A stretch of 39,391 nt of DNA from Peptococcaceae bacterium BRH_c4a (GTDB lineage Bacteria > Bacillota > Desulfotomaculia > Desulfotomaculales > Desulfocucumaceae). Positions 313 through 33,179 of the stretch are shown here, one piece after another (position 1 is the first letter of the stretch; every line of letters begins with the position of its first letter). A program made the position numbers and the translations under genes. The notes beneath the pieces are model-generated. The model saw nothing but the letters and a program-made list of their open reading frames with translations, did no database searches and was not told the DNA's origin. The DNA is taken from the NCBI GenBank assembly GCA_000961585.1, contig LADN01000076.1:1-39391 (forward strand). The letters run 5' to 3'.

Positions 313-768
313 CTACTTTATCTTGACTATTATCTCCACCTCTACAGCGGCATTCATAGGCAGTTCGCTAACCCCCACCGCAGCCCTGGCGTGCCGACCG
401 GCCTCACCAAAGACCTCGCCCAGCAACTCTGAGGCCCCATTTACTACTTTGGGCTGACTTGCAAAACCCTGGGCACTGTTTACAAAGCCGCTAACCTTGA
501 CTATCCTCTCTATATTGTCCAAGCTTCCAATCAATTCCTTTATCGCACTTAAACAGTTGACGGCGCATATTTTTGCGGCCTCGTAACCCTGGGCTTCGGT
601 AAGATCGCTGCCCACTCTGCCTTTAAATTTGAGATCCCCGTCAACAATAGGAATCTGCCCCGATGTGTACACATACCTGTCCGCCAGGACCGCAGGAACG
701 TATGCGGCCAGAGGCTTTGGAGCAACAGGGAGGGTTATGCCCATTTCTTTCAGTTTGGCTTCATACAT
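313..768 (-). CDS. ridA: RidA/YjgF-family enamine/imine deaminase
   Basis: This 151-residue protein belongs to the Rid (YjgF/YER057c/UK114) family, whose archetype RidA hydrolyses reactive enamines and imines released by PLP enzymes or amino-acid oxidases. The signature Arg is in [12 protein letters not shown] (Arg128) and the later conserved Glu in EVEI (about Glu145), matching the catalytic Arg/Glu arrangement of active RidA. It is longer than E. coli RidA (about 128 residues), as in the roughly 150-residue subgroup. The start ATG at 768 follows GGAG of the upstream gene by a short spacer. It is the last gene of the two-gene transcript starting at the palindromic operator at 1227. Its presence suggests the cluster generates an unstable imine; the exact substrate is inference. 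Confidence 0.9.
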
Positions 769-770
769 AA

Positions 771-1214
771 TTAATCATCTCCATCCATATGTTTGATAAT
801 AATCTCGGACTCCAGCTTCAAACCCAACTCCACACCGTCGGGCCTGGCATTGGAAAACAATACTATGTTCAGATGGTTGGGAAGATGTGTTTCATCGAAC
901 CCTGCAATCTTACCCAAAACCCTGCCGCAGCAAATCACTTCATCACCGGTCACCAGCACCCCGCCGTTGGCTATTTCCAGAAAACCCACATAGGATATAC
1001 TATTTACCATTTTTCCAGGAGCGGCTTCAATTTGGTCGGTAATTATAATTTCGTGGATTTCGTTCTTCTTCACAGCTCTGGAGATAGGGACAACCAGTTC
1101 CAAGGCCCGGTTTTCCAGCTTTCCCCTTAGAATTACCACCAGCCTGCCCAATACATCCCTCTTGGCGGCGTAGGGATTTTCACTGAATAGCCCTGCACTG
1201 TACGGATCTGTCAA
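771..1214 (-). CDS. Conserved protein of unknown function, first gene of the RidA transcript
   Basis: A 147-residue soluble protein that I cannot place in a named family with confidence. It is rich in short beta-strand-like stretches with Gly turns (around residues 75-110), and has no signal peptide or membrane segment. The start is TTG at 1214, set 9 nt after GAGGAG. That ribosome site is itself partly inside the palindromic operator at 1227-1241. The gene ends 2 nt before the RidA start, so the two are certainly cotranscribed. A consensus promoter (-35 TTGTGA, 17 nt, -10 TATAAT) drives the pair. Its link with RidA and with the B12/PLP genes under the same operator suggests a role in the same pathway, perhaps handling a labile intermediate; that is inference only. 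Confidence 0.75.
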   Translation of the reverse strand: MTDPYSAGLFSENPYAAKRDVLGRLVVILRGKLENRALELVVPISRAVKKNEIHEIIITDQIEAAPGKMVNSISYVGFLEIANGGVLVTGDEVICCGRVLGKIAGFDETHLPNHLNIVLFSNARPDGVELGLKLESEIIIKHMDGDD

Positions 1215-1226
1215 CTAACCACACTC

Positions 1227-1241
1227 CTCATCATTGATGAG
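1227..1241. promoter_or_regulatory. Palindromic operator, copy 1
   Basis: CTCATCA-T-TGATGAG is a perfect 7-bp-arm palindrome. It sits 4 nt downstream of the -10 box of the promoter for the gene at 771-1214, so it covers the transcription start and touches the ribosome binding site, as expected of a repressor site. An identical copy is found at 10711-10725 ahead of the PLP enzyme gene. The nearest candidate repressor is the FCD regulator at 1321-2055. Confidence 0.75.
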
Positions 1242-1245
1242 TACA

Positions 1246-1274
1246 ATTATACCACCTTCTAAGACTTTTCACAA
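1246..1274 (-). promoter_or_regulatory. Sigma-70-type promoter of the unknown-protein/RidA transcript
   Basis: Read on the minus strand, -35 TTGTGA (1269-1274) and -10 TATAAT (1246-1251) are separated by exactly 17 nt. The -35 box abuts the terminator of the upstream regulator gene. Confidence 0.75.
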
Positions 1275-1276
1275 GC

Positions 1277-1309
1277 AAATGAGAGCGGACAACCAGTCCG
1301 CTCTCATTT
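1277..1309 (-). terminator. Terminator after the FCD regulator gene
   Basis: Perfect 14-bp stem AAATGAGAGCGGAC / GTCCGCTCTCATTT with a 5-nt loop, 12 nt past the regulator stop. It isolates the regulator transcript from the RidA transcript. The stem end overlaps the start of the next promoter closely. Confidence 0.8.
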
Positions 1310-1320
1310 GCTATATTCGG

Positions 1321-2055
1321 CTATCGCTCAACCAGACTCCAATACTTCTGAACGTCCTCGATAAGGCTCTCAATGTGTTCCACCATGGCCTGTTCGGCCC
1401 CGTCCGGATTGCGGTCCCTGATGGCCGATAAAATCTTGCCATGCCCCACCACCAGCCGGCCTCCCACTTCAGTCCGGATATATTCCAGTATGGGTGACAA
1501 CTGTCCGTCATGCCTGATCAAATCCAGGGCGGCGGCCAATACCTTGTTTTTGGCCGATTCGGAAACCAGTTTGTGAAACTTTACATCCTGTTCGGCGGTC
1601 ATTTGTTTCTGTAAGCTGAACTGTTCCTGATCAATCAAAACCGACTCCATCCGGAGAATTTCCGAATCGGTGGCGTGCAGCGCAGCCAGCCTGGCCAGTT
1701 CCCTCTCGATGGCCCTCCTGGCCACCAGAATATCAATAAGATCTTCCTTCTTAGTAGACTTTAGGGTCTCGATAAAACGGTTTCCATAGGCCAGGCGGCG
1801 CTCAAGATTCCTGAAATGTTCCAGCTCTGTTCTTCCGCTGTCGGTGATGGTGCGCCCCTTGAAGCCCGCTTTAATGGTCAGGGCCTTTCTGTCCATTTCG
1901 TTAAGAATACGCCCCACCGTTGCCTCGCTGACTCCAAAGCCCCTGTCCTGCAAAAGCTGGCTAATCAGGCCGGAACCCATGGGCTCCACCCGCTCTTCCA
2001 TTATAGATAGAATTTGGCACTCCAGCTTTTCCCTGTCGCCTGTCACCAACATCAC
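1321..2055 (-). CDS. FCD-domain (GntR/FadR-like) transcriptional regulator
   Basis: 244 residues. The N-terminal winged helix (about 8-75) is followed by an all-helical FCD ligand-binding domain (about 90-235). The FCD metal-site residues are visible: Asp157 and His161 in the D-x-x-x-H motif, then His205 and His227. FCD regulators usually bind small carboxylates or amino acids with a metal. The start is GTG at 2055 or ATG at 2052, only about 10 nt beyond the predicted +1, so the leader is very short. The gene has its own promoter and terminator. It is the only DNA-binding protein in the cluster and the natural candidate for binding the two identical CTCATCA palindromes (1227 and 10711). No copy of that site is seen at its own promoter, so it may not autoregulate. 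Confidence 0.88.
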   Translation of the reverse strand: MMLVTGDREKLECQILSIMEERVEPMGSGLISQLLQDRGFGVSEATVGRILNEMDRKALTIKAGFKGRTITDSGRTELEHFRNLERRLAYGNRFIETLKSTKKEDLIDILVARRAIERELARLAALHATDSEILRMESVLIDQEQFSLQKQMTAEQDVKFHKLVSESAKNKVLAAALDLIRHDGQLSPILEYIRTEVGGRLVVGHGKILSAIRDRNPDGAEQAMVEHIESLIEDVQKYWSLVER

Positions 2056-2069
2056 CCCAGACCAATTCT

Positions 2070-2098
2070 AATATATGCAGAATCTTTCCGCCTGTCAA
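2070..2098 (-). promoter_or_regulatory. Promoter of the FCD regulator
   Basis: On the minus strand TTGACA (2093-2098), 17 nt, TATATT (2070-2075). This near-consensus promoter lies directly upstream of the regulator start, predicting an almost leaderless mRNA. Confidence 0.75.
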
Positions 2099-2145
2099 GG
2101 TCAAACCCGGCAAACCCAGCCCCGATAGATACGGGGCGTATTGTA

Positions 2146-2176
2146 AAAGTGCCCCACCGCCGGGGTGGGGCACTTT
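2146..2176 (-). terminator. Terminator after the permease gene
   Basis: Perfect 13-bp stem AAAGTGCCCCACC / GGTGGGGCACTTT with a 5-nt loop, then TTTTAC on the minus strand. It ends the transcript containing the permease (stop at 2200). Confidence 0.85.
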
Positions 2177-2199
2177 ACCTAAAAAAGACAAACCTGGTA

Positions 2200-3606
2200 T
2201 TACAGCATGAAAATGACGGCCACAATAGTGGATACAACCATCCCGGTTATCACCGGAATAAAATTCTTCCTTACCAGATCCAGAACCGGAACACCAGCTA
2301 TGCCGGCCACGGCCACCAATGATGACCATGCCACAATGGTGCCGCCGCCCGACCAGATGGCCCCGATCTGCCCGATGGAAGCCAGGGTTGCGGTTATATT
2401 CTGGTTGCCCGAACCCAGGGCGGCAGCCAGTGTTCCCACCAGCGGAAGCCCGGAAAAGCCGGAACCGTCAAGTCCTGTAATCATACCCAGTATCAGCAGG
2501 CCAAAGCTGGCCACAAATCCCGTGGGACTGATAACGCTGGCCATGGCGTTGCCCACATCGAACAGATAGCCTGGCGCCCCTTTACCCAGGATGAGTGGAG
2601 CAGACTCGGGACTTCCTATGAAAAAGAAGCCAGCGATGGGTATGATGGGCCCCATAATTTTGAAGGCGAACCCCAGCCCTTCTCCCAGGAAATCAGCCAC
2701 ACTGTCCAGACCTTTTGACTTAAAAACCAGCAAAGAGGTGATGATAATCACCAGGAAGGCCGACCCGCCCAGCAAGGCCGAAGCGTCGCCGCCTTTTATA
2801 TCAAAGGCGAATAGGGAGACAACAACTCCTACAACCACTGCTATCATCAGTCCCGCCGCAAATTTTCCGTAGCGGGCGCCTTCCAGCACCTTTTCTACAC
2901 CGCCGGCCTGCCCCACTATGTCAAAACCAGTGGATTTTTCATTTTTAGTTTTCTCGGCAAATGTTTTAATTTCTTTTCTACTCATTATCCAGGCCATGGT
3001 TATGGCCACCACACCGGTAATGGCTGTTAACATACCCGCCCGGATGGTCACCATCTCAACGGGTACTCCGGCGGACTTTGCCGTCAGCCCGGGGGCTCCC
3101 TGGATAATAACGTCGCCTCCCAGAGCCATCCCCTGTCCGGCCAGGGCTATGGCCACGGCGCACATGATGGGGGGCAGCCCGGCCCTTATGGCCGCCGGGA
3201 TGAGCAGCGCCCCTATGAGCGGCACTGCCGGGGTCGGCCAGAACAGCAGAGAAATAAAAGCAGTGCCCAGAATTATTACCAGATAACCGGTCAGCGGCGA
3301 ATTCATAAAACCCTTCAGGGGCTTTACCAGAACCTGGTCGGCGCCGGTCACTTCCATGGCTGCCAGCAGCGCCACCATTACCCCGATAATCATGAATATG
3401 CTGAAAAGATCCTTGGCCGCAACGATGCTGGCGTTAAAAATTGTTCCCACACCGCCGATAAAACTGCCCGTATAAACCAGGCCAATGGCGAAGGTAAACA
3501 GTATACAGGGTATTATTACATTCTTCCTCAATATCATGGTTGCGATTACAGTTAGGACACCGATAATATAAATCCAGTGAACGGCATTAAAATGGACTTC
3601 TGACAT
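2200..3606 (-). CDS. Multi-spanning organic-acid/amino-acid permease (ion-transporter superfamily)
   Basis: A 468-residue integral membrane protein with about 11-12 hydrophobic segments, and repeated Gly/Pro-rich hairpins such as FWPTPAVPLIGALL and SPTGFVASFGLL, typical of the GntP/CitMHS/DcuC-like ion-transporter superfamily. I chose the ATG at 3606 (MSEVHF) because GGAGGTG lies 7 nt upstream; an in-frame ATG ten codons earlier lacks a ribosome site. Substrate unknown. Its position between the P-loop/mutase genes and the regulator suggests it imports or exports the amino or organic acid metabolised by the cluster. An uptake role would make it a Na+ or H+ symporter at the cytoplasmic membrane. 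Confidence 0.8.
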   Translation of the reverse strand: MSEVHFNAVHWIYIIGVLTVIATMILRKNVIIPCILFTFAIGLVYTGSFIGGVGTIFNASIVAAKDLFSIFMIIGVMVALLAAMEVTGADQVLVKPLKGFMNSPLTGYLVIILGTAFISLLFWPTPAVPLIGALLIPAAIRAGLPPIMCAVAIALAGQGMALGGDVIIQGAPGLTAKSAGVPVEMVTIRAGMLTAITGVVAITMAWIMSRKEIKTFAEKTKNEKSTGFDIVGQAGGVEKVLEGARYGKFAAGLMIAVVVGVVVSLFAFDIKGGDASALLGGSAFLVIIITSLLVFKSKGLDSVADFLGEGLGFAFKIMGPIIPIAGFFFIGSPESAPLILGKGAPGYLFDVGNAMASVISPTGFVASFGLLILGMITGLDGSGFSGLPLVGTLAAALGSGNQNITATLASIGQIGAIWSGGGTIVAWSSLVAVAGIAGVPVLDLVRKNFIPVITGMVVSTIVAVIFML

Positions 3607-3743
3607 TTTGACACACCTCCAAAATAAATTTTGCAAGAAACTGTTATTATTTTGTTAAAAAGCTAAGATCCCCCCTCTAATCACCCACTTTTCCGAACAA
3701 TAAGATAATTGAATGGCTAATATTCCAGCCGTGAACCCAATTC

Positions 3744-4808
3744 TTAAGCCAAGCTCTTCAGCGCCCCGGCCAAACCTCCGGGGCCGTCCCGGACCACATC
3801 AAAAACCGGAACATTGACGGAACACTTTATTTTCGAAACCAACAGATCCCGGTCGATAAAAGCAGGCTGGTAATGGTTGGTTTCGTACCTGTAGCAGGGG
3901 TAAAAGGGATTTACCGCCACCGCCGCCAGGGGCAGGGACTTACGGAAGACCACCCTTCCCTCCCTCTGCGAGACCCTGTCCACAAAGCGTCGGGCCGTTA
4001 GCGGGCCGCCGCTCAGGACAAGCTTCATCGGATCCTCAAAAACGTACGTCATACCTTCCCTGAAGGGCAATCCAGCCAGTGCCTCCAAAATCGCCGGGGA
4101 AACCAGCCCCGGGCAGTACAGGCCCCCGGCCTCCCCCGCCAGGCAGGACATTGCTTTTACACACCCGGCTTCCAGAAGCAATCCGGGTAACTCAGCCAGT
4201 ATCACACCGTCACGGTTCCAGAGAACTGATTTGCCCTCAACATGGGCGGCCCCGGGAATCTCCGCCCCCCCCGGAAGGCTGCATATAACTCCCAGGCTGT
4301 GTGTTTCCAGGGACAACCTGTCCAGGTCGGTGGTATATGACGCTCCGGTGCAAAGTATAATGCCGTCGGTCTCGGCCATGGGGGCAACCCTGTTCAGTGC
4401 CCCGTCCACCATAACCAGATCCGCCCCCTGCACGGACATCCACTGCAGTATCTCCCTCAGGTGCCGGCTTTGATTGGGCCCCGCCAGCACCATAAGGCCG
4501 CCCTTAGCCACTTGGCCGCACACAATTTCACCCAGCGGGGTTTTAATACCCGTCCGGTCCAGCACCTTTACCCTGGCGCTGCCCGCAGGCAGACACCCTT
4601 CCGAAACCGCCACCAAACTGCCCGCTTCTAAATAAATCCTCGGCTTGGGCAAACCGGTTACATTGTCAACCCTTTCCCCATCGTAACCAATGCTGGTAAT
4701 ACCGATGCAGATCCCCGGGTTCCGCAAGTATTCCAGCAAAGCCATGGTGGCGGTGGTCTTTCCGGTATTTTTAGCCGTTCCCGCAATGCCCACGGTGAGC
4801 GTTTTCAC
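3744..4808 (-). CDS. P-loop protein coupled to the B12 mutase-like gene
   Basis: 354 residues. A nucleotide-binding loop lies at the extreme N-terminus (TAKNTGKTT, residues 11-19), of the kind seen in MobB and related SIMIBI-type proteins but with Thr where the first Gly of Walker A usually is. A Walker-B-like strand LVMVDGALNR follows around residue 130. No close named family is recognised. It starts with GTG inside a 4-nt GTGA overlap with the mutase-like gene, so the two are translationally coupled. B12 mutases often have a dedicated NTPase that loads or repairs the cobalamin (for example MeaB for methylmalonyl-CoA mutase). By analogy this may be such a chaperone, but that is inference from position and P-loop only. 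Confidence 0.7.
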   Translation of the reverse strand: MKTLTVGIAGTAKNTGKTTATMALLEYLRNPGICIGITSIGYDGERVDNVTGLPKPRIYLEAGSLVAVSEGCLPAGSARVKVLDRTGIKTPLGEIVCGQVAKGGLMVLAGPNQSRHLREILQWMSVQGADLVMVDGALNRVAPMAETDGIILCTGASYTTDLDRLSLETHSLGVICSLPGGAEIPGAAHVEGKSVLWNRDGVILAELPGLLLEAGCVKAMSCLAGEAGGLYCPGLVSPAILEALAGLPFREGMTYVFEDPMKLVLSGGPLTARRFVDRVSQREGRVVFRKSLPLAAVAVNPFYPCYRYETNHYQPAFIDRDLLVSKIKCSVNVPVFDVVRDGPGGLAGALKSLA

Positions 4809-6625
4809 ACCATCATCACCGTGTCCCTTCCGTTCCGGCCAGGGTAAGCGCCTTCCTCACGGCTGCCAAGTACTCCCCGGTAAAGCGCCTCCACGAAATC
4901 TCCCCTGTCGGCAACCTGCCGCAGAACGTTCTCAATGCCTTCTTCAATTTCCCGGCTCCAGTCCAGCGCCCGCTGGGATGGTTCCAGCCTGGTGCTGCCG
5001 AAAAACCTGAAGCCCTCGCCCACTGCCCGCAGTGTATCCACCTTGGAGGGCACGCTTATGGGCCCCCCTGAATATGCCTCGTCCGAGGAGGCGATGGTAA
5101 TGGCGTCAACCCCCAGCATTGCCGCCAGACAGGCATGATAAGCCGTGGCGGCCGAGGACTGAATGCGGTCCTCGGAATGGGTCATAAAACCTATGGGAGC
5201 CCCCGGCCAGACCGGGGCGTCTATAATGTGGCGCAGGGCCAGCACCTTGGCTACATTAAAATCAACATAGTTATCCTTCATCTGCCCCCCCACCATAACC
5301 TCGGGAGAATAGCAAAACAGTGGCTGAAGTATGGGCTTCGCCCCCAGCCTCAGGGCCAGGGCGGCGGTAATCAGCATCCCGGCAAAGGCCTTGTGGGCCG
5401 GAACCCCGCAAAGCTCCTCATTGGTCACAATGTCAAAGGGCAAACCGTATTTGGCCGCATAGCGGATAGCCTCAACCCCGTCCACAGTCATCCGGGCCGG
5501 GTCTGTGCCGGCCCCCAGCGCCCCGTAAGATATATTTATTTTGGTGAGGTCGGCCTGGAATTTTCCCGCCAGCACCACGGTCTCCGGTGTGTTTAACCCC
5601 CTGTGGGCGCGCACCTGCCAGAGAGTACCGGATTCCAAAGATTGTCTGATCCGGTTCAAGTTGGCCGGGGTGATCACCGTCCCATCCTCCTGATGGGTAA
5701 GAAACCCGTCCATGAAACCCTCTGTCCTTGCTCCCCAGGAAGGATCGAAGTGTATTACCCCGTCCGCCCCCCAGGCCTCGCTGACCTTTATGTGCCCGGT
5801 ATCCATAAAGGGACAGCCGGTGCCATACTGGTTAAACACCAGCGGCTTCTTCAGTGAGTGCTGAAGTTTTGGCGCCTCCATGCGTTCCTTGGTGGCCTTT
5901 ATATACTCTTCAAGGGCCGCCGCCTCTTCCCTGGTAAACCGTCTGGTCTTTGGGTGCAGAATACCTTTCAGGTAAAAATCACGGGTGATTTCCCCGCAAA
6001 ACCTGGGATACTCTTCCAAAAATTCAGTCATTTTCTCGTATTTGCGCCATCTGTCTATATCCCACAATTCCTCGCGCACCCGGGCCCGCAACACCCCGGA
6101 GGAAGTCCTGTTTTCCGTCCAGGCCAGTATAATGCCGGCAATCTGCTTCAGCAGTCCGGCGATAACGCTGTTATGGCAGGTATAAGTATAAGATTCGGTA
6201 ATATCAATCTTTAGTTTGTTATTTTTGGCCAGGCCCGGGACATAATCCCTGCCTTCAACGAAGGCCACCGCCTCCTCCACGCTGGTGCCGGGACCAAAAC
6301 CCGCGTCAAAGCCTAATTCAGCGGCCAGTTCAGGACGTATGGCCATCCCGCCTATGCCTATTCTGACCCTGTCCCTAACCCCGGCAGCATCAGCCAGGTC
6401 AACGAACCTAGCCAGTATCTCAGCCACACCGTAACCCAGGGTCCTGCTGATCAGCACGGTATCCGCCCGGCTGTTTATTATCTCCTGGATAATCTCCTCC
6501 GGCTGCAGATCCGGCTGCAGGAGAACTGTTTCGTGTCCCGCCTCTTCAAGTCCGCGCTTTATTATTTTCAGGCCCACATCGTGGACCGGGTCAATGGGAG
6601 CCAGCAGAACTTTTCGGGAAACCAT
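4805..6625 (-). CDS. Cobalamin-binding mutase-like protein (N-terminal B12 domain plus TIM-barrel-like domain)
   Basis: 606 residues from the ATG at 6625, chosen because GGAGAGGAG lies 7 nt upstream; an open frame extends 20 codons further without support. Residues about 1-130 look like a Rossmann-type B12-binding domain, with DPVHDVG near residue 12 resembling the D-x-H-x-x-G cobalt-ligating loop and later RIGIGGMAI. The remainder (about 230-600) resembles the TIM-barrel subunit of glutamate mutase (MutE/GlmE) and related aminomutases, notably KINISYGALGAG and ITIASSDEAYSGG. The canonical Asp two residues before His is Pro here, with Asp displaced by one. B12-domain-first order differs from ornithine aminomutase OraE, where it is C-terminal. 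It likely catalyses an adenosylcobalamin-dependent 1,2-rearrangement of an amino acid; the substrate is unknown. Confidence 0.75.
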   Translation of the reverse strand: MVSRKVLLAPIDPVHDVGLKIIKRGLEEAGHETVLLQPDLQPEEIIQEIINSRADTVLISRTLGYGVAEILARFVDLADAAGVRDRVRIGIGGMAIRPELAAELGFDAGFGPGTSVEEAVAFVEGRDYVPGLAKNNKLKIDITESYTYTCHNSVIAGLLKQIAGIILAWTENRTSSGVLRARVREELWDIDRWRKYEKMTEFLEEYPRFCGEITRDFYLKGILHPKTRRFTREEAAALEEYIKATKERMEAPKLQHSLKKPLVFNQYGTGCPFMDTGHIKVSEAWGADGVIHFDPSWGARTEGFMDGFLTHQEDGTVITPANLNRIRQSLESGTLWQVRAHRGLNTPETVVLAGKFQADLTKINISYGALGAGTDPARMTVDGVEAIRYAAKYGLPFDIVTNEELCGVPAHKAFAGMLITAALALRLGAKPILQPLFCYSPEVMVGGQMKDNYVDFNVAKVLALRHIIDAPVWPGAPIGFMTHSEDRIQSSAATAYHACLAAMLGVDAITIASSDEAYSGGPISVPSKVDTLRAVGEGFRFFGSTRLEPSQRALDWSREIEEGIENVLRQVADRGDFVEALYRGVLGSREEGAYPGRNGRDTVMMV

Positions 6626-6866
6626 CGCCAGTCTCCTCTCCACCGATTTTAAGCCACCCGTAAGCGTCACCCGGGCGATGGACATAAGCCCTGGCCCTTA
6701 AACGCACGCCGGGCCCCTGAAACTGTATGAATACTATATCAACGTCCTTAAAGCCCATTTCCCTGAATAACTGGAGTGTCAGCCTGCGTCCTTCATCCTC
6801 GCTGGAACATACCAGAAATGTTTCTATGTCAATGGCGTCCATTATCCGTTCCAAAATACGGGACAA
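6591..6866 (-). CDS. Small protein upstream of the B12 mutase-like gene
   Basis: About 91 residues from a TTG at 6866 that follows GGGAGGTG by 6 nt; an in-frame ATG at 6890 has no ribosome site. The sequence predicts helix, strand and helix (LERIMDAIDIETFLVC, then DEGRRLTLQLFREMGF), and no family is recognised. It overlaps the start of the mutase-like gene by 35 nt, implying coupled translation and perhaps a small subunit. It does not resemble OraS of ornithine aminomutase. The last dozen residues lie in the overlap and are Gly/Ser-rich. Confidence 0.6.
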   Translation of the reverse strand: MSRILERIMDAIDIETFLVCSSEDEGRRLTLQLFREMGFKDVDIVFIQFQGPGVRLRARAYVHRPGDAYGWLKIGGEETGDGFPKSSAGSH

Positions 6867-6979
6867 TCGGCACACCTCCCGGTAACGCATTATTTTATCA
6901 CATTACTTGCCAAAGGGCAGCTTATTTTTCAGGTATGCCGCATAACATATAATAAAACCCATTAAAAGGGGGAAATAAG

Positions 6980-7813
6980 TTGAATACTTCCGCTCTCTCC
7001 GGCCAGTGCGAAATTACCGGACACAAAGACTGCCCCTGTGTGCTTGCCAACCTTGAAGAGTGCCTGGTGTGCAGCCACCTGCAAGGCCTGGATTTTTGCG
7101 ACTGCCGCTGGACTAAAAACTGCGTTTACATCAATTTTATACACGACAAAAAATCTTTGGGCCCAAAGGGTGAAAATTTTTTAACTCCAGCCCGCTTTCT
7201 TACAGTGGGAATACGTGGATATCATCTTTTTTTAACTGCGCCTGATGCTGTATTAAGAACCGCCGGACCTCTGGACTGCGTTTCTATCAGAACCCGGCAA
7301 AAACCGGAAAAAACTTTTCCTGCGGTGGTGCTGGAAAAATACCCGGATCACGGGATAATCTCACTGGCCGTCAAGCCTCTCACCGCAACGGAGAAGAACA
7401 TACTTTTCAGTTCTTCGTCCTTTGATTTGATCCCCGGGTCAAAAACCGCCGTACAGGGCTTAACTAATATTGGAAGGCTTGAAGGAATGAACGTGCTTAT
7501 CTCAGCCTCAGGTTACGAACAGCTTCTGGCCCATGCCCTTGTCAAAAGACTGCTGCTGTTTAAAGCTAAAGATATAACGGTTTTATTAAATGAAAACCTG
7601 TCCGTTATCGTCAGCAAACTGGAAAGGGCCGGAGTCCGGTACCAAACGGGTAATGAACGCTCACTGCGGGAAGCCCTTAAGCGCAGTAGTTTTCAAGCCT
7701 GTTTCAGCCTGGGACCCAACTCACTGCACAAAAGGGTTGCCATGGCACTGAACAGCGCGGGGTCCGCCATTCCCCTTTTCATTTCAACCAGTTGCGGAAC
7801 TAACGCTTTTTAA
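6980..7813 (+). CDS. Cys-rich protein with ferredoxin-reductase-like fold
   Basis: 277 residues from TTG at 6980, preceded by AAAGGGGGAAATAAG. The N-terminal 50 residues carry nine Cys, with CPCVLANLEECLVCSHLQG and FCDC, suggesting a zinc or iron-sulfur site. The rest (about 70-260) resembles the FAD/NAD-binding halves of dihydroorotate dehydrogenase electron-transfer (PyrK/FNR-like) proteins. A beta-rich domain is followed by a Rossmann-like segment (NVLISASGYEQLL, then DITVLLNENL), but without a clear GxGxxP motif. It is transcribed against the cluster genes and converges with the FAD enzyme gene, overlapping its end by 4 nt. It may be a divergent electron carrier or sensor, and its role in the B12 cluster is uncertain. 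Confidence 0.65.
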   Translation: MNTSALSGQCEITGHKDCPCVLANLEECLVCSHLQGLDFCDCRWTKNCVYINFIHDKKSLGPKGENFLTPARFLTVGIRGYHLFLTAPDAVLRTAGPLDCVSIRTRQKPEKTFPAVVLEKYPDHGIISLAVKPLTATEKNILFSSSSFDLIPGSKTAVQGLTNIGRLEGMNVLISASGYEQLLAHALVKRLLLFKAKDITVLLNENLSVIVSKLERAGVRYQTGNERSLREALKRSSFQACFSLGPNSLHKRVAMALNSAGSAIPLFISTSCGTNAF

Positions 7814-9090
7814 CAATTTTTTTTGAAGATATCCGTCATACCGGTCCTGTTCACCCTGGCCCTGATAACATCGAGATTGGTGCTGTACAGCCCCTTTTCT
7901 TTCATCCGCTGAAAGTAAACCGAGCCTGAGAAGGTGTACTTTTTGGACAGTCCTTCCTCAGTCCTCATCTGATCGCCAACATAGGCTATGGCGTCACCTA
8001 TGGCAAGGTCCGAAGGAATCACCAGGGTTTCCCGTCCCAGTGCCCGCCTGACGGCGTTGTGCCCGGCCAGGGACCCGGTAACTATGGCCTCGGTGTGCCC
8101 CACCAGGGGGCCGGCCTTTTCACCGGCGCAGAAGAGGTTGTCCAGCCCTTCCACCCTAAGGGAGTTGTCCCTGGGTGAAAGTGCCAGGTATCGTATGGAG
8201 TTGGCCATACCCCCGGAATAGGGGTCCTCGTACCGGGCATACTCAAAGCCGGGTATCTGTCTCAACAGATCCAGGGGGTAAAAGGGGGCCATAAGCTTGG
8301 CGTGCCCTGTGTCAAGAAGTATTATATTTTCGGCAAACTCCGCCAGCGCATACTGCTGACAGGCCTTTTTGGCAAGTATCCCCTCGCCCTTCCTTAATGC
8401 CTCGGGAATGGGAACTATGACCACACCGTATTTGTCCAGCCGTTCCACCATTTCCGGGGCCAGCGACTCTTTGAAAAGCTTGCAGGAACCGCTCATGGCC
8501 CCAATGGAACCGTCGCTTTTTTTGGCGACAGATTCCTTAATCCCGGCCTTGGCCGCAATACTAACCCTGCCGCCAAAGGTGGGGCAACGCAAAACGCACA
8601 TGGCGCAGCCGTTGCCGTATTTAACACAATTGCCCATGGGCCCCGCACTGCCGGTGGTTTCTATAAACACGTCGCCGTTTACCACCTCTTCGTTTTCCAG
8701 TATAACGCCGGTGATAATATTGTTCTCAGTCTTAACGTCTTTTACCCGGCTTTTAGTACGGACCTCCACGCCTTTCTCTTTCAGCAGCCCCTTAATGGCC
8801 GGCTCAATTCTGGCCACATCATATAATGACGCATGCTTGTGTCCCGGAAATTCAATATTCTTATGACGGCACGTCCGGTCAATAACTTGAAATACCTCCC
8901 CGGCCCCCATGCAAACAGCCTCTTCAGTAGCCGTGAACCTCCCATTGTTGCGCATTATGCCGCCCACCAGACCAGTCCCCAGCAACATGTCCGTTCTCTC
9001 CAGCAAGGTTACCTTTGCCCCCGCCTGGGCCGCCGCCACCGCCGAACCGGTGCCCGCCCAGCCGCCTCCAATCACCACTATGCGTACCAT
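7810..9090 (-). CDS. FAD-dependent oxidoreductase with four-Cys motif (MnmG/TrmFO-like fold)
   Basis: 426 residues. The N-terminal dinucleotide fold is VVIGGGWAG (residues 5-13, GxGxxG), and the C-terminal FAD loop LDNLFCAGEKAGPLVGHTEA (about 310) is of the GidA/MnmG-related kind. Between them Cys155, Cys162, Cys165 and Cys169 form C-x6-C-x2-C-x3-CP, which looks like an iron-sulfur ligand set rather than part of the ordinary flavoprotein core. The ATG at 9090 follows AAGGAGG by 8 nt. It sits 58 nt after the PLP enzyme gene in the same transcript. A plausible role is dehydrogenation of an amino group to an imine, passing electrons to a ferredoxin, in keeping with the RidA gene in the regulon. 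Substrate unknown. Confidence 0.8.
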   Translation of the reverse strand: MVRIVVIGGGWAGTGSAVAAAQAGAKVTLLERTDMLLGTGLVGGIMRNNGRFTATEEAVCMGAGEVFQVIDRTCRHKNIEFPGHKHASLYDVARIEPAIKGLLKEKGVEVRTKSRVKDVKTENNIITGVILENEEVVNGDVFIETTGSAGPMGNCVKYGNGCAMCVLRCPTFGGRVSIAAKAGIKESVAKKSDGSIGAMSGSCKLFKESLAPEMVERLDKYGVVIVPIPEALRKGEGILAKKACQQYALAEFAENIILLDTGHAKLMAPFYPLDLLRQIPGFEYARYEDPYSGGMANSIRYLALSPRDNSLRVEGLDNLFCAGEKAGPLVGHTEAIVTGSLAGHNAVRRALGRETLVIPSDLAIGDAIAYVGDQMRTEEGLSKKYTFSGSVYFQRMKEKGLYSTNLDVIRARVNRTGMTDIFKKNC

Positions 9091-9147
9091 AAGTCAAGCC
9101 TCCTTAAAACCGTTTCCTCCCGCAGCAACTGCTAGCTGACAGCTTTA

Positions 9148-10611
9148 CTAAATCACTCCTGCGCTCTTGCATATTATCTCAATCATGCGGACCAAACCCT
9201 GCACCGCATACCTGGTCTCTTTTTCCAGCAGCCGGCCTTCCTTATCGGTGGTGCCCAGTCCCGGTGAGATGTAGATATTTCCGTCATATGCCACCGTGGG
9301 TATAATACCCATCTGGGCCATGCCCGACTGAAGGAGGTTGCTCCCGGAGTACATGTCCTCAATGGAGAAGATGGGTATGCCAAGTTTACCGCCTTTCCAG
9401 GTCCCCTCGTAGTTTACCTCAACTGCGGTGGAGTTATAGGACTTGGAAATAATTATACCTTCTTTTAGTTTTGCCGGCAGGCTTTCAAACTCCTCCCTGA
9501 CGATTTTCTCCAGATCGTCAACGGGACGGGTCAAAACCTCCGGTCTGTCCCTCAAAATCTTTAAAGCCTGTATCTGGGTCAGCAGAGCTTCTTTCCCCGG
9601 ATCAAAGGTCACATAGGCGGCCTTGCCGTATGAAGCGGTGGTCCCCCAGCGGTCGCCGTGCATGCCCATGGCCCGCCGTATGGGAACCATGTATTCCTCC
9701 TTGCCTATTACAAGTCCGCTGGTGGCTGCGCCGGTGGCCTTGTCCATGCTGTAAATCACCAGGTCCGCCCCGGTTTTTCTCGGATCGGATCCAACGAAGG
9801 GAAGTCCCCAGGCGTTGTCCACCACGTAAGGAATGTCGTATTTATGAGCCAGTTGGGAAATTAGCTTCTGAAGCACCGGGACGCCGTCCTCATCCTTGAC
9901 ACCATACCCGTAACCGGGTGTTTCATAGCCCAGTGAAGTTATGCCGGTAAGCATAGACTTATGGTTTTCAGCATGAAAGGCTAATTTTTCAATGGAGGCC
10001 TGGGGGTCAACCCCGGTCAGAAGCGGCACCGGGTGGTACTTGATGCCGTGCGCGTCATACCTTGCCCCCGCCAGGGGAACAATTACGGTATCCAGGTTGT
10101 TCTGCCTTTTGCCGTAAAAGCCCAACTCCCCGGCCGTGGATCCCCTATCGGCGAAAATATCCTTAAAGCGTCCGGGAAAGGGCCGCCCGTAACTTCCCTG
10201 ATGATGCAGGTGCTTTTCATAAGGAGCGATATATCTTGCCCGGTAATTGTCGCCTCTCCCCATCATCGGGGGCGTGAATAAAACGTCGTAACACAGCCAA
10301 ATCCCCGCCTCGCAAGTGCTGGTAGCCGCTGCGTCGTACTCGTCACCATACACGTCCTTGACGATCTCCCTTATCTCGTCCATCAATTTGGCCAGAGGGA
10401 TAACCTCTACCGCACCCTTCTCCCCTGCCTCCATAATGTCCTCCCGCAGCGGGGCGGGGCAGCCTGAAATGGCTCCGGTCAAACCGAATTTGCCTCTAAT
10501 CTCAGGCGGAATGCCAATATCGTCCGCAACCTTTCTAGCCTCGGAATAAATATTGGCTGTATTGGCCTGAAGCTGCCTGTACATCTGAAACTTAAACTTT
10601 GGTTTATCCAC
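9148..10611 (-). CDS. PLP-dependent enzyme, fold type I (aminotransferase/lyase superfamily)
   Basis: 487 residues from GTG at 10611, chosen because GGAGGTG lies 5 nt upstream; an in-frame ATG at 10680 gives 510 residues but has no ribosome site. The cofactor signature is clear. The Asp that contacts the pyridine nitrogen is in PYVVDNAWG (Asp265 here), and the Schiff-base Lys is in SMDKATGA (Lys291), 26 residues later. The N-terminal and central segments match no well-known aminotransferase, so this may be a lyase or desulfurase-like branch. It is the first gene of the cluster behind operator copy 2 and has the FAD enzyme immediately downstream. In family terms it could deaminate, eliminate or cleave the product of the B12 mutase; that is inference. 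Confidence 0.82.
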   Translation of the reverse strand: MDKPKFKFQMYRQLQANTANIYSEARKVADDIGIPPEIRGKFGLTGAISGCPAPLREDIMEAGEKGAVEVIPLAKLMDEIREIVKDVYGDEYDAAATSTCEAGIWLCYDVLFTPPMMGRGDNYRARYIAPYEKHLHHQGSYGRPFPGRFKDIFADRGSTAGELGFYGKRQNNLDTVIVPLAGARYDAHGIKYHPVPLLTGVDPQASIEKLAFHAENHKSMLTGITSLGYETPGYGYGVKDEDGVPVLQKLISQLAHKYDIPYVVDNAWGLPFVGSDPRKTGADLVIYSMDKATGAATSGLVIGKEEYMVPIRRAMGMHGDRWGTTASYGKAAYVTFDPGKEALLTQIQALKILRDRPEVLTRPVDDLEKIVREEFESLPAKLKEGIIISKSYNSTAVEVNYEGTWKGGKLGIPIFSIEDMYSGSNLLQSGMAQMGIIPTVAYDGNIYISPGLGTTDKEGRLLEKETRYAVQGLVRMIEIICKSAGVI

Positions 10612-10710
10612 TTCTACACCTCCGTAATCTTGTCCCAATTCGCCGATTTTTGCAAAAGTCCCGCCGGTAATTATCCCCATGAGACTGGACCGGCAATCTC
10701 TCAGGCACTA

Positions 10711-10725
10711 CTCATCATTGATGAG
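10711..10725. promoter_or_regulatory. Palindromic operator, copy 2
   Basis: Identical 15 bases to the operator at 1227-1241 (CTCATCA-T-TGATGAG). It lies 11 nt downstream of a TATAAT (10737-10742, minus strand), near or just after the transcription start of the PLP-enzyme operon, which is a repressor-type position. Two perfect copies about 9.5 kb apart, both at promoters of minus-strand genes, make chance unlikely. Confidence 0.75.
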
Positions 10726-11290: not shown

Positions 11291-11393
11291 ACCTGTGATA
11301 ATGCGGTATAAACAGGAAAAACCCGGCAGAAGCTATACTGGTTCAGGCAATGTAGAAGCGGGCGTAATGGCCCGGTTATGGAGGGGTCACAAT

Positions 11394-12821
11394 ATGGTAA
11401 AGTCTTCAAGTATTGTAATCAGGGTTAAATTATCCAACCGGCCCGGGACCCTGGCAGGGGTGTTGACTGCAATAGCCAGGGAAGGGGGAAGCATCGGGGC
11501 CATAGAGCTTATTTCGGCTTCACCTTCCATGGTCACAAGGGACATAATGGTCCGTTTGCGGGACAGAAATTCCCTTGGGGGACTTACCGGCACTCTCAGT
11601 GATATCCCCGGCGTCAGGGTAATTCATGTGGCCGACAGGGTTTTCATGAGGCATTTGGGGGGAAAAATTGAAATTCAGCCCAAAAAGCCGGTTACCAACT
11701 GGGAGGATCTTGCCCTGATATATACCCCCGGGGTGGGCGGTGTTTCCGAGGCCATCGCCAGGGATCCCGGCCTGGCCTACCGGCTCACCATGAAGGGAAA
11801 CTCGGTGGCCATTGTAACCGACGGGTCGGCGGTGCTGGGACTGGGCAACCTGGGGCCGGCGGCAGCCTTGCCGGTGATGGAGGGGAAGGCCATACTTTTT
11901 AAAAAATTCGCCAATATAGACGCCGTTCCTTTGTGCCTGGATGTGCACGAGCCCCAGCAGATAATTGATGCCGTGGCAGCCCTGGCCCCTTCCTTTGGAG
12001 GTATCAACCTGGAAGATATTGCCGCTCCCAAATGCTTCGAGATCGAGGAAAGGCTATCGCAAATATTGGATATACCGGTTTTCCACGACGACCAGCACGG
12101 TACCGCCATAGTCGCCCTGGCCGGTTTGATTAATGCCCTCAAGGTGGTGGGCAAAAGCATGCCCACCATAAAACTGGTGCTTAGCGGCGCTGGCGCTGCG
12201 GGGGTGGCCATTGCCAAAATAATGAAAAGTGCCGGTGTGGGTGAAATTATTGTATGTGACAGAAACGGAGCCATCTCCAGGGATAACCCGCCAGATCAGC
12301 AGTCTAAACTTTGGCTGGCCGAAAACACCAACCAGAGATGCATCCACGGCAGTCTGAAGGAGGTTTTGGCCGGGGCCGATGTTTTCATCGGTGTATCCGG
12401 ACCGGGCCTTTTAAAAAGGGAAGACGTGTTGAAAATGGCTGAAAAGCCGGTGGTATTCGCCCTGGCCAACCCTGAGCCAGAAATAAACCCCGAAGAAATA
12501 GCCGATATCGCCGGGGTCATCGCCACCGGCAGGTCTGATTATCCCAACCAGGTTAACAACGCCCTTGTCTTTCCGGGCGTGTTCCGTGGGGCGCTGGACT
12601 GCCATGCCAGGGTCATAAACGACCAAATGTGCCTTGCCGCAGGCTTCGCCCTGTCGGGAGTAATAACCCCCGACCAGCTCAACGCAGAGAACATCATCCC
12701 TTCTGTTTTTAATGATCAGGTGGCTGCGGTGGTAGCCAGGGCGGTGGAAGAAAACGCAATACAAACAGGGGTTGCGGGGAACGCACCGGAAAATGAAGAT
12801 TATCTGGATTTACTGGTTTGA
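11394..12821 (+). CDS. NAD-type malic enzyme with N-terminal ACT domain
   Basis: 475 residues from ATG at 11394, set 7 nt after GGAGGGG; the open frame extends 33 codons upstream without a ribosome site. Residues about 7-80 form an ACT regulatory domain (VKLSNRPGTLAGVLTAIA). The malic enzyme N-domain follows (IYTPGVGGVSEAI) and the conserved FHDDQHGTAIV stretch, then the NAD(P)-binding domain (LVLSGAGAAGVAIAKIM). The enzyme oxidatively decarboxylates malate to pyruvate. An ACT domain suggests allosteric control by an amino acid. It is monocistronic, with the ATTGGT inverted repeat in its upstream region. Confidence 0.93.
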   Translation: MVKSSSIVIRVKLSNRPGTLAGVLTAIAREGGSIGAIELISASPSMVTRDIMVRLRDRNSLGGLTGTLSDIPGVRVIHVADRVFMRHLGGKIEIQPKKPVTNWEDLALIYTPGVGGVSEAIARDPGLAYRLTMKGNSVAIVTDGSAVLGLGNLGPAAALPVMEGKAILFKKFANIDAVPLCLDVHEPQQIIDAVAALAPSFGGINLEDIAAPKCFEIEERLSQILDIPVFHDDQHGTAIVALAGLINALKVVGKSMPTIKLVLSGAGAAGVAIAKIMKSAGVGEIIVCDRNGAISRDNPPDQQSKLWLAENTNQRCIHGSLKEVLAGADVFIGVSGPGLLKREDVLKMAEKPVVFALANPEPEINPEEIADIAGVIATGRSDYPNQVNNALVFPGVFRGALDCHARVINDQMCLAAGFALSGVITPDQLNAENIIPSVFNDQVAAVVARAVEENAIQTGVAGNAPENEDYLDLLV

Positions 12822-12981: not shown

Positions 12982-13013
12982 GTAAATACATATATTCGAT
13001 TGGGGTGAATACC

Positions 13014-13304
13014 ATGGCAGAAATTCAAGCCTCCTCCCACAAGGTTTCTGTCCAAAGACGTAATTTAATCAGTCTCCCGAAGGATATCAGGGAAACATTA
13101 AATATTAATGAAGGTGATGTACTTGATATTCGCCTTGTTGACAACAAGATTGTGATCGAACCAATGAAATTAATACCTTCAAGTCAAGCCTACTTTTGGA
13201 CTGATAAAACCCAAAATGATATGCTTGAGGCGAAGAAAGATGTTAATTCCGGAAAAGTTCGGGAGTTCGAAACTATTAAAGATTTTTTGGACGGCATCGA
13301 ATAA
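13014..13304 (+). CDS. AbrB/MazE-type antitoxin
   Basis: 96 residues. The N-terminal half is a swapped-hairpin AbrB-like DNA-binding domain (SVQRRNLISLPKDIRETLNI followed by EGDVLDIRLV). The C-terminal half (AYFWTDKTQNDMLEAKKD onwards) is a helical toxin-neutralising tail. ATG at 13014 follows GGGGTG by 6 nt; a GTG three codons earlier is possible. Its last codon overlaps the toxin start (TAATG). It is presumed to bind the palindrome in its own promoter. Confidence 0.85.
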   Translation: MAEIQASSHKVSVQRRNLISLPKDIRETLNINEGDVLDIRLVDNKIVIEPMKLIPSSQAYFWTDKTQNDMLEAKKDVNSGKVREFETIKDFLDGIE

Positions 13305-13582
13305 TGACTAGACGATTTAGAGCCACCCGAAAATTCGATAAGCAATTTAAATCGCTCGATAATAAGACTAATAAGCAAGCGTTAAAGGCAATTGAAATTT
13401 TTATGACAGACCCAAGTCATCCTTCTCTTCGCTACAAAAAGCTCCAGGGTACAAATAATTTCTATGAGATAAGCGTTAACATGTCAGTACGTATTATCAT
13501 AGAAGTCACTTCCGAAGGCCAAGATCAAATCAATACATTCTTCGTCATCGGTACTCACGATGAGGTATTACCTCCAAAGTAG
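13304..13582 (+). CDS. RelE/YafQ-type mRNA interferase toxin
   Basis: 92 residues: RKFDKQFKSLD helix, then the SLRYKKLQGTNNFYEISVNMSVRII core and FFVIGTHDEV C-terminal strand, which are the hallmarks of ParE/RelE-superfamily toxins of the YafQ/HigB branch. Ribosome-dependent mRNA cleavage is expected; which toxin branch it belongs to cannot be fixed by eye. It is coupled to the antitoxin by a 1-nt TAATG overlap. A short terminator begins inside its stop codon. Confidence 0.85.
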   Translation: MTRRFRATRKFDKQFKSLDNKTNKQALKAIEIFMTDPSHPSLRYKKLQGTNNFYEISVNMSVRIIIEVTSEGQDQINTFFVIGTHDEVLPPK

Positions 13583-14075: not shown

Positions 14076-15098
14076 TCAGTGGAGAGTTGTATCCGGCCCG
14101 TCCGGGGCTGCTTTGCCCGGCACTTCTCGATATCCTGAGGCATTAAGGTATTCCTCCACATCCAGCCCTTCGGCGGCCTCCCTGATCACAGCGGCGGAAT
14201 GCCTGAGATGGGATTTTTCCTCCTCGGAAATGGGAACGGCCAGGGCCCTTGCCCTTCCGGACCTGTTCACCAGGGAAGGCACACTGATACATACATTGCT
14301 GAGGCCGTATTCCCCGTCTAAAAGCCCGGAAACAGTAAGTATGGAATTCTCATCCCTGATTATGCCCTCACATATCCTTTTGACCGCCAGCCCTATGGCG
14401 TAATAGGTGGCGCCCTTGCGGTCTATTATTTCATACCCTGCCCTTCTCACCTGATCGGATATCTCCTTTCTGTCCAGGGAGGGAATGCCGCGCATGTTAC
14501 AAAAGTCCTCCACACCTATTCCGGCGATGTTGGCCAGACTCCACAGAGGCACCTCGGTGTCCCCGTGCTCACCCACAACATAGGCGTGAATATTGCGGGC
14601 CTCCACCCTGCATTTTTGGCTTAGCAGAAAGCGGAACCGGGAGCTGTCCAGAACGGTTCCGGACCCCAGTACGCGGTTGGGGGGCAGTCCGGTTATTTTC
14701 AGGGCTGCGTAAGTGAGAACATCCACCGGATTTGACACCATAAGCAGTATTGAGTTGCGCTGGGGGCTCATTATGCGGGGCAGAACCTCCTTCAGCACCG
14801 ATGTGTTCTTTTGTATCAGGCTGAGCCTTGTTTCGCCCGGCTTCTGGTTGGCCCCGGCGGCAAATACTATAATATCGGCATTGTGACAGTCCTCGTATTC
14901 GCCGGAGTATATTTTTATGGGGCTGACAAAGGAGGCCCCGTGAGCAAGGTCCATGGCCTCTCCCTCAGCCTTCTTCTTATCTATGTCCACCAGAGCCATT
15001 TCACTGACCAAGCCGCCGATCATCAGGGCGTAAGCAGATGCCGACCCGACGGACCCGGTTCCAACCACCGCAATTTTTCTTTTGTCCTCCATAAACAT
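14076..15098 (-). CDS. ldh: L-lactate dehydrogenase
   Basis: 340 residues from ATG at 15098 (6 nt after GGAGGG); a TTG two codons earlier is less likely. The NAD fold is IAVVGTGSVGSASAYAL near the N-terminus. The substrate-specificity loop AAGANQKPGETR has Gln, marking lactate rather than malate dehydrogenase, in which Arg is found. NPVDVLTYAALK and the catalytic His in VVGEHGDTEVPLW are intact. It is monocistronic, transcribed away from the polysaccharide deacetylase. In an anaerobe it would recycle NADH by reducing pyruvate, or oxidise lactate. Confidence 0.93.
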   Translation of the reverse strand: MFMEDKRKIAVVGTGSVGSASAYALMIGGLVSEMALVDIDKKKAEGEAMDLAHGASFVSPIKIYSGEYEDCHNADIIVFAAGANQKPGETRLSLIQKNTSVLKEVLPRIMSPQRNSILLMVSNPVDVLTYAALKITGLPPNRVLGSGTVLDSSRFRFLLSQKCRVEARNIHAYVVGEHGDTEVPLWSLANIAGIGVEDFCNMRGIPSLDRKEISDQVRRAGYEIIDRKGATYYAIGLAVKRICEGIIRDENSILTVSGLLDGEYGLSNVCISVPSLVNRSGRARALAVPISEEEKSHLRHSAAVIREAAEGLDVEEYLNASGYREVPGKAAPDGPDTTLH

Positions 15099-15244
15099 AT
15101 GCAACCCTCCGGGAATTTAATTCTTTGAAATGTAAATCAGGCTTTTTGAACGTAAGCCTTATATATTTTTTTGCCCCGGGGCTTATAATATTCGGATCAT
15201 TTCCTTTTCTGTTTAAAACGATAAAAAAAACAATGCTTTTGTCA

Positions 15245-33037: not shown

Positions 33038-33179
33038 TTCCAAGCCCCCTTGTCCCGCTAAAACTATTTCTTGGAAATATTATAACATGCGTCATCTTAA
33101 ACGTAAACTTCTGGCAACGTGATGTTAAATAAAATGAACAACAAAGAAAAAAAGCCCCTTTTTTTCAATAGCTATCGCC

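Follow-up and report, generated by a model that had tools for sequence, protein, structure and literature searches.

To our knowledge few amino-acid fermentations that use B12 are known, and each has taught new radical chemistry. The described enzymes closest to the one considered here are D-lysine 5,6-aminomutase (KamDE) and D-ornithine 4,5-aminomutase (OraS/OraE), which belong to a lineage dependent on pyridoxal phosphate (PLP), and glutamate mutase (MutE/MutS), which is PLP-free and in which two carboxylates are bound by arginines. We have analyzed 39,391 nucleotides of contig LADN01000076.1 from Peptococcaceae bacterium BRH_c4a (the window), where positions 313-10725 hold a gene cluster that includes a B12 mutase-like protein, referred to as Mut in what follows. 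An original prediction, made from the letters of the DNA alone, had described a B12-, PLP- and flavin adenine dinucleotide (FAD)-dependent cluster that matches no known pathway; the genes that it named are all found within the interval and no known pathway that the cluster fits emerged from the curated families or the papers searched. The literature searched, which lacks most subscription journals, yielded no paper on the cluster, and none of the mutase, PLP, FAD, permease and small proteins is covered by an NCBIfam equivalog. On balance we favor the reading that the cluster is a substrate-inducible catabolic regulon built around a putative PLP-independent adenosylcobalamin (AdoCbl) mutase of the lysine 5,6-/ornithine 4,5-aminomutase lineage.

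Domain and family calls were made with Pfam and NCBIfam profiles, and remote homology was assessed by hhalign profile-profile comparison of the Mut family with collected KamD, KamE, OraE and OraS sequences. The mutase gene (4805-6685, minus strand, probable start 6625) encodes a B12 domain fused to a KamD-like TIM (triosephosphate isomerase) barrel. Pfam detects only the B12-binding domain (PF02310, 1e-15), which is N-terminal and carries a DPVHDVG motif with His15, D12, H15 and G18 being invariant. It matches the corresponding domains of KamE and OraE with Prob 99.3 and 98.0, respectively, while the barrel matches KamD (P 2.3e-6 over 390 columns) in an alignment that takes in both the initial TTxxxERAxxR helix and the helix-plus-G end; in a control the reversed KamD profile gives P 0.21 against the Mut barrel. 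When the Mut family profile is compared with solved structures the best match is the beta subunit of lysine 5,6-aminomutase (2.4e-19), with the alpha subunit marginal (0.77). The small gene (6591-6890, minus strand) encodes a homologue of the KamE N-terminal domain (Prob 79.7, P 1.5e-5, 37 residues), and the P-loop protein (3744-4808, minus strand), with the motif GxxGTAKNTGKTT, aligns with the KamB reactivase family NF052386 over 333 residues at 206.5 bits (E 4.8e-61), just below the equivalog cut-off of 210.

By homology, then, the mutase is related to lysine 5,6-/ornithine 4,5-aminomutase but has its domains rearranged, the small upstream protein is the KamE N-terminal domain as a separate chain, and the P-loop protein is a KamB-type reactivase, or close relative of it. 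The matches to KamE, KamD and the KamE N-terminal domain point to a system in which every part of lysine 5,6-aminomutase is present but the divisions fall elsewhere, the KamE N-terminal domain standing alone and the B12 domain and KamD barrel forming one chain. The adjoining KamB-type reactivase gene is a further likeness to KamDE, whereas the Schiff-base lysine and the PLP phosphate motif are lost and downstream genes of the kce, kdd or kal type are not seen within the cluster. With OraE the mutase has in common the presence of barrel and B12 domain on a single chain and a C-terminal YPxRxG motif; the B12 domain is C-terminal there, however, and N-terminal in Mut, where in addition the PLP site is lost. 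Ord, OrtA and OrtB are not in the cluster, and OraS, tried as the source of the small protein, was ruled out (P 0.39), the two being unrelated.

The residues through which lysine 5,6-aminomutase contacts PLP, which are highly conserved in ornithine aminomutase, are listed in PMC3958899 (section 4.1), and we mapped them onto OraE and Mut through profile alignments. All nine of the barrel contacts (Arg184, Gly187, Gln188, Ser189, Tyr236, Ser238, Tyr263, Arg268 and Asn299) are kept in OraE, whereas in Mut only the PLP-stacking tyrosine Tyr263 is retained, as Y367. Arg184 and Arg268 are lost, Ser238 is replaced by an invariant R342, Asn235 by R339 and Tyr236 by A340. The lysine that forms the imine with PLP, at His+11 (Lys144 in KamE, Lys629 in OraE), is found in 13/13 KamE and 15/15 OraE sequences and in none of the 31 Mut sequences, every one of which has a leucine there (31/31), and the R[ST].GQS phosphate motif is present in 12 of 13 KamD, in all 15 OraE and again in 0/31 Mut sequences. 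The former test is independent of the barrel alignment and the latter is a plain string count. Altogether, one of ten literature-defined PLP contacts is left in Mut, which probably works without PLP. The residues aligned with the former PLP pocket include the invariant R300, R339, H341 and R342, and Arg378, K412 and K460 are further invariant residues. Loss of the pocket together with invariant Arg300, Arg339 and Arg342 at aligned positions suggests an anionic substrate, which Mut would perhaps bind directly, in the manner of glutamate mutase; an amino acid that carries two carboxylates would be an example.

The alternative that survives best, although we consider it unlikely, is that Mut is still a PLP-assisted aminomutase that holds PLP through some other lysine (K20, K412 or K460) or as an external aldimine only, and that, like lysine 5,6-aminomutase, shifts an amino group. 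Both its lineage and its reactivase are those of aminomutases, the stacking tyrosine has been retained and K412 and K460 are invariant. Nevertheless, nine of ten PLP contacts are gone, the Schiff-base lysine and the phosphate motif among them, all of which ornithine aminomutase retains, and K20 is not universal, with Arg in its place in an Omnitrophota metagenome-assembled genome (MAG; L006). A normal PLP-assisted aminomutase is unlikely for a protein that lacks the aminomutase PLP site.

A separate PLP enzyme is encoded at 9148-10680 on the minus strand with a probable GTG start at 10611. It is a fold-type I protein, distantly related to DgaE/SelA and to the O-acetylhomoserine sulfhydrylase group, and K297 and D271 are invariant in an alignment (A2) of 27 sequences of 55-87% identity. 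DgaE (D-glucosaminate-6-phosphate ammonia-lyase, TIGR01437) and its SelA relatives, likewise fold-type I, give the best partial match, but over ~60 residues only and far below the DgaE cut-off (E 1e-10, 41 bits vs 385). DgaE, the nearest named family, eliminates from hydroxy amino acids, and this lends something to a second alternative, in which Mut would act on a hydroxy amino acid as an eliminase, either a B12 dehydratase or an ammonia-lyase of the diol-dehydratase/ethanolamine type, and the PLP enzyme and Rid would process the product. The known PLP-free B12 eliminases are TIM barrels as well. Mut has, however, no sequence match to the diol dehydratase or ethanolamine ammonia-lyase families and the reactivase is KamB-like rather than DdrAB- or EutA-like, so that we give this possibility little weight.

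A second glutamate route, with Mut as an analogue of glutamate mutase, seems more doubtful still. Both enzymes would be PLP-free, the proposed likeness lying in the use of AdoCbl to transform an anionic amino acid, and the invariant Arg300, 339, 342 and 378 of Mut recall the arginines that bind carboxylates in glutamate mutase; yet the Mut barrel has no MutE match (PF06368 is negative in Pfam), there is no methylaspartase in the cluster, the reactivase is KamB-like and not MutL, and a glutamate mutase E subunit (MutE) is already encoded in the genome, on another contig (C53). The last finding also qualifies the claim of the original prediction that genes of known B12 pathways are absent, which stands for KamD/OraE-type genes (PF09043), without a match in the whole genome, kamA, Ord and OrtAB not having been searched genome-wide. 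With no KamD/OraE aminomutase and a separate glutamate mutase, the cluster is not a simple replacement of either. With three CobA-type adenosyltransferases the genome can make AdoCbl. Finally, that Mut is a corrinoid methyltransferase component and not a radical enzyme can be set aside as highly improbable, corrinoid-protein B12 domains matching it only weakly (MtgC, 29.9 bits) while its B12 domain is matched best by KamE, its barrel is KamD-like, the small subunit resembles the KamE N-terminal domain and a KamB-type reactivase is found in 40/42 loci.

In transcription order on the minus strand the genes encode the PLP enzyme, an FAD oxidoreductase, the small protein, the B12 mutase-like protein, the P-loop protein, a permease (2200-3636, without a Pfam or NCBIfam family), an HTH_12-FCD regulator, a DUF6917 protein (771-1214; PF21891, 153.4 bits) and a RidA-family (YjgF) enamine/imine hydrolase (313-768; PF14588 1e-26, PF01042 1.3e-18). 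The original prediction had proposed conserved co-occurrence in other genomes as a check, and this is what we observe in a scan of 398 Bacillota genomes: the mutase is present in 39, the PLP enzyme in 41 and DUF6917 in 40, and every mutase-carrying genome (39/39) also has the PLP enzyme and DUF6917. The gene block is intact in about one tenth of the sampled genomes. Carriers include Desulfocucumis palustris (L005, 83% identity) and the Omnitrophota MAG mentioned above (47% identity), so that the mutase family crosses phyla. Over 42 homologous mutase loci the small gene is present in 41, the KamB-like gene in 40, the PLP gene in 40, DUF6917 in 37, the FAD gene and the FCD regulator in 33 each, Rid in 25, the permease in 18 and a PRK05802-like gene in 15. 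From these counts the conserved core is small-mutase-KamB plus PLP plus DUF6917, with FAD, Rid and permease genes either accessory or placed elsewhere in the genome. The DUF6917 protein, from a family without a name in the database, accompanies the mutase and PLP genes almost without exception. Some of the carrier genomes have syntenic spermidine synthase, agmatinase, D-Ala-D-Ala carboxypeptidase and pseudouridine synthase genes; as these lack an operator of their own, they were not used for guessing the substrate.

Regulation offers a further line of evidence. The original prediction had noted two identical palindromes, taken to be operators, on either side of the cluster. A perfect 15-bp palindrome, CTCATCATTGATGAG, does occur exactly twice in the window, at 1227-1241 and 10711-10725, with 0.07 copies expected and two copies reached in 0/100 shuffles. 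The picture of bracketing does not hold, however: the 10711-10725 copy is upstream of and heads the PLP-FAD transcript, while the 1227-1241 copy lies inside the cluster and heads DUF6917-Rid. The internal copy is at the expected transcription start, with a sigma-A type promoter (TTGTGA-17-TATAAT, 1246-1274, minus strand, 10/12 consensus matches) directly upstream of it. Repressor operators normally sit directly after the promoter. In the related genomes the operator CTCATCANTGATGAG is found in 31/41 carriers, with 1-4 copies in each, and the reversed pattern matches none. When up to one mismatch is allowed the 42 loci contain 48 sites, of which 30 precede DUF6917 and 12 the small gene, and Markov-simulated loci gave no sites in five runs. 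Moreover, the operator tracks the FCD regulator (1321-2055, minus strand; PF07729 8.1e-21, PF08461 2.5e-13), occurring in 30/33 loci with the regulator and 1/9 without it, with a Fisher p of 1.2e-5 that is optimistic in that related genomes are counted separately. The palindrome is a genuine operator, as had been proposed, probably that of the FCD regulator, and the latter is a probable repressor of the cluster. The leader of the PLP gene in the window, from operator to probable GTG start, is ~100 nt long (10612-10710, minus strand) and is absent in DUF6917-first relatives; a riboswitch in it is not indicated by any Rfam match. Many operator-bearing promoters (L153, L156, L158, L160, L161, L163) show a recurrent GGAxTTTT...TGTCGAAT/TGTCGTA...TATAAT arrangement upstream of the operators, in which TGTCGAA resembles a Spo0A box; TGTCGTA is also present in the PLP promoter of the window.

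Outside the cluster the operator is found before stand-alone permeases (L153, L156, L158, L160, L162, L172, L173, L175, L179), before NIF3-amidohydrolase-Gate permease operons (L154, L161, L163, L171, L177, L181, L182), before PorABCD 2-oxoacid:ferredoxin oxidoreductase genes (L155, L168/L190, L188) and before genes for a dihydrodipicolinate synthase (DHDPS)-family aldolase or an Opp/SBP5 ATP-binding cassette (ABC) transporter (L157, L159, L185); at a few such sites (L164-L167) there is no clear target. The Por operons are behind the operator in genomes G235, G413 and G362. In G413 the operon directly follows KamB with the operator in between, and in G235 Rid is behind the operator-linked Por, the main cluster of that genome being without Rid. 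The operator-linked PorC gamma scores 192 bits against a subfamily cut-off of 81. PorABCD genes, which in other genomes have the operator in common with the cluster, are not within the window. A regulon consisting of permease, amidohydrolase, Por with Rid, and DHDPS with Opp supports catabolism through a 2-oxo acid. There are also divergent PLP/DUF6917 paralogues without a mutase (L108, L109 and L112, in genomes G257 and G281), which lie near ThDP (thiamine diphosphate) enzymes or aminotransferases, a setting that agrees with 2-oxo-acid chemistry without being decisive. Neighbors of these paralogues include acetolactate-synthase-like ThDP enzymes, tripartite tricarboxylate transporters, or MmgE/PrpD plus an M19 dipeptidase; a 596-residue neighbor of the PLP paralogue in L108 proved to be unrelated.

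These elements can be placed in a pathway of which the simplest version that uses all parts is as follows. The FCD regulator would bind CTCATCANTGATGAG at the transcription start, where site and promoter are both observed, and be released by the substrate, which would be imported by the permease or, in other genomes, imported or released by the operator-linked amidohydrolase system or peptide ABC transporter. Mut and the small subunit, judged by their homologues, would then carry out an AdoCbl radical 1,2-rearrangement, with the KamB-like ATPase exchanging damaged cobalamin. In a subsequent step suggested by family membership, the PLP enzyme would eliminate from or deaminate the amino acid to give an enamine that Rid hydrolyzes to a 2-oxo acid and ammonia, although the order of these two steps may differ. 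A PorABCD-type oxidoreductase, operator-linked in some genomes and encoded here or elsewhere in the present one, would turn the 2-oxo acid into acyl-CoA, CO2 and reduced ferredoxin, and the FAD enzyme with its flavoprotein partner may take off electrons at a step that is dispensable in some lineages. The earlier suggestion of an amino acid that is rearranged and then converted to an imine is supported in part: Rid and the operator-linked Por fit a route from amino acid through imine or enamine to keto acid. Diaminopimelate, with its two carboxylates and with a DapA-like aldolase and a peptide ABC transporter in the regulon, was considered as substrate and has no direct support.

Several observations weigh against the reading that we favor. 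The barrel match to KamD is moderate (Prob 89), direct comparison with the barrel of ornithine aminomutase (OraE) is weak (P 0.0014), and the glutamate that binds the adenosyl ribose (E338 in ornithine aminomutase) is not aligned by profile comparison, D515-E516 being a visible candidate in Mut. AlphaFold2, run on three-row alignments, gave poor models for the mutase and for the PLP enzyme (mean pLDDT, the predicted local distance difference test, of 45.3 and 46.6), which do not show the arginine pocket in three dimensions. The FAD gene is absent from 9/42 loci and hence not essential everywhere, and the Por and DHDPS operons are operator-linked in only ~3 genomes each.

The FAD gene (7810-9090, minus strand) encodes an oxidoreductase of the GidA/FAD_oxidored type (PF01134, E 2.6e-34), in which invariant Cys155, 162, 165, 169, 203, 244 and 321 make an iron-sulfur cluster possible. 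Between it and the small gene lies a divergently transcribed plus-strand gene (6980-7813), contrary to the original prediction in which all genes were on one strand; this gene and that for DUF6917 had not been named there. Its product, an electron-transfer flavoprotein-like protein of the PRK05802 type with a Cys-rich N-terminus, matches NF004470, a sulfide/dihydroorotate dehydrogenase-like FAD/NAD protein family, only weakly (E 4.5e-16, 58.8 bits vs a cut-off of 313) and probably serves the FAD enzyme as electron partner.

Near the cluster the window contains a malic enzyme with an ACT domain (11295-12821, plus strand) and a lactate/malate dehydrogenase (14076-15104, minus strand), as well as a MazE/AbrB-type antitoxin gene (13005-13582, plus strand) that overlaps a small downstream gene, RelE/ParE-type toxin-like by eye. 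A TwoAYGGAY RNA (Rfam RF01731; 16364-16521, plus strand) scores 44.2 bits, where the gathering score is 43, and is downstream of a polysaccharide deacetylase gene. Further along there is a second radical enzyme within the window, a glycyl-radical enzyme (PFL-like plus Gly_radical; 33363-35939, plus strand), beside a PrpR-type sigma-54 activator (31115-33043, minus strand).

By descent the enzyme appears to be a variant of the aminomutase lineage in an uncharacterized pathway. We propose, tentatively and at somewhat less than an even chance, that a class of PLP-independent AdoCbl mutases arose inside a PLP-dependent aminomutase lineage, with an arginine pocket replacing the PLP pocket, and that it opens a widespread and uncharacterized amino-acid fermentation ending in 2-oxo acid and acyl-CoA. 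An enzyme that kept the B12 machinery of an aminomutase and lost its B6 site would be a natural experiment on why 1,2-shifts need PLP. The shared operator provides a handle on the substrate, as an inducing compound in a carrier strain is likely to be the substrate, and the cluster puts DUF6917 and the permease, families for which no role has been described, into a context.

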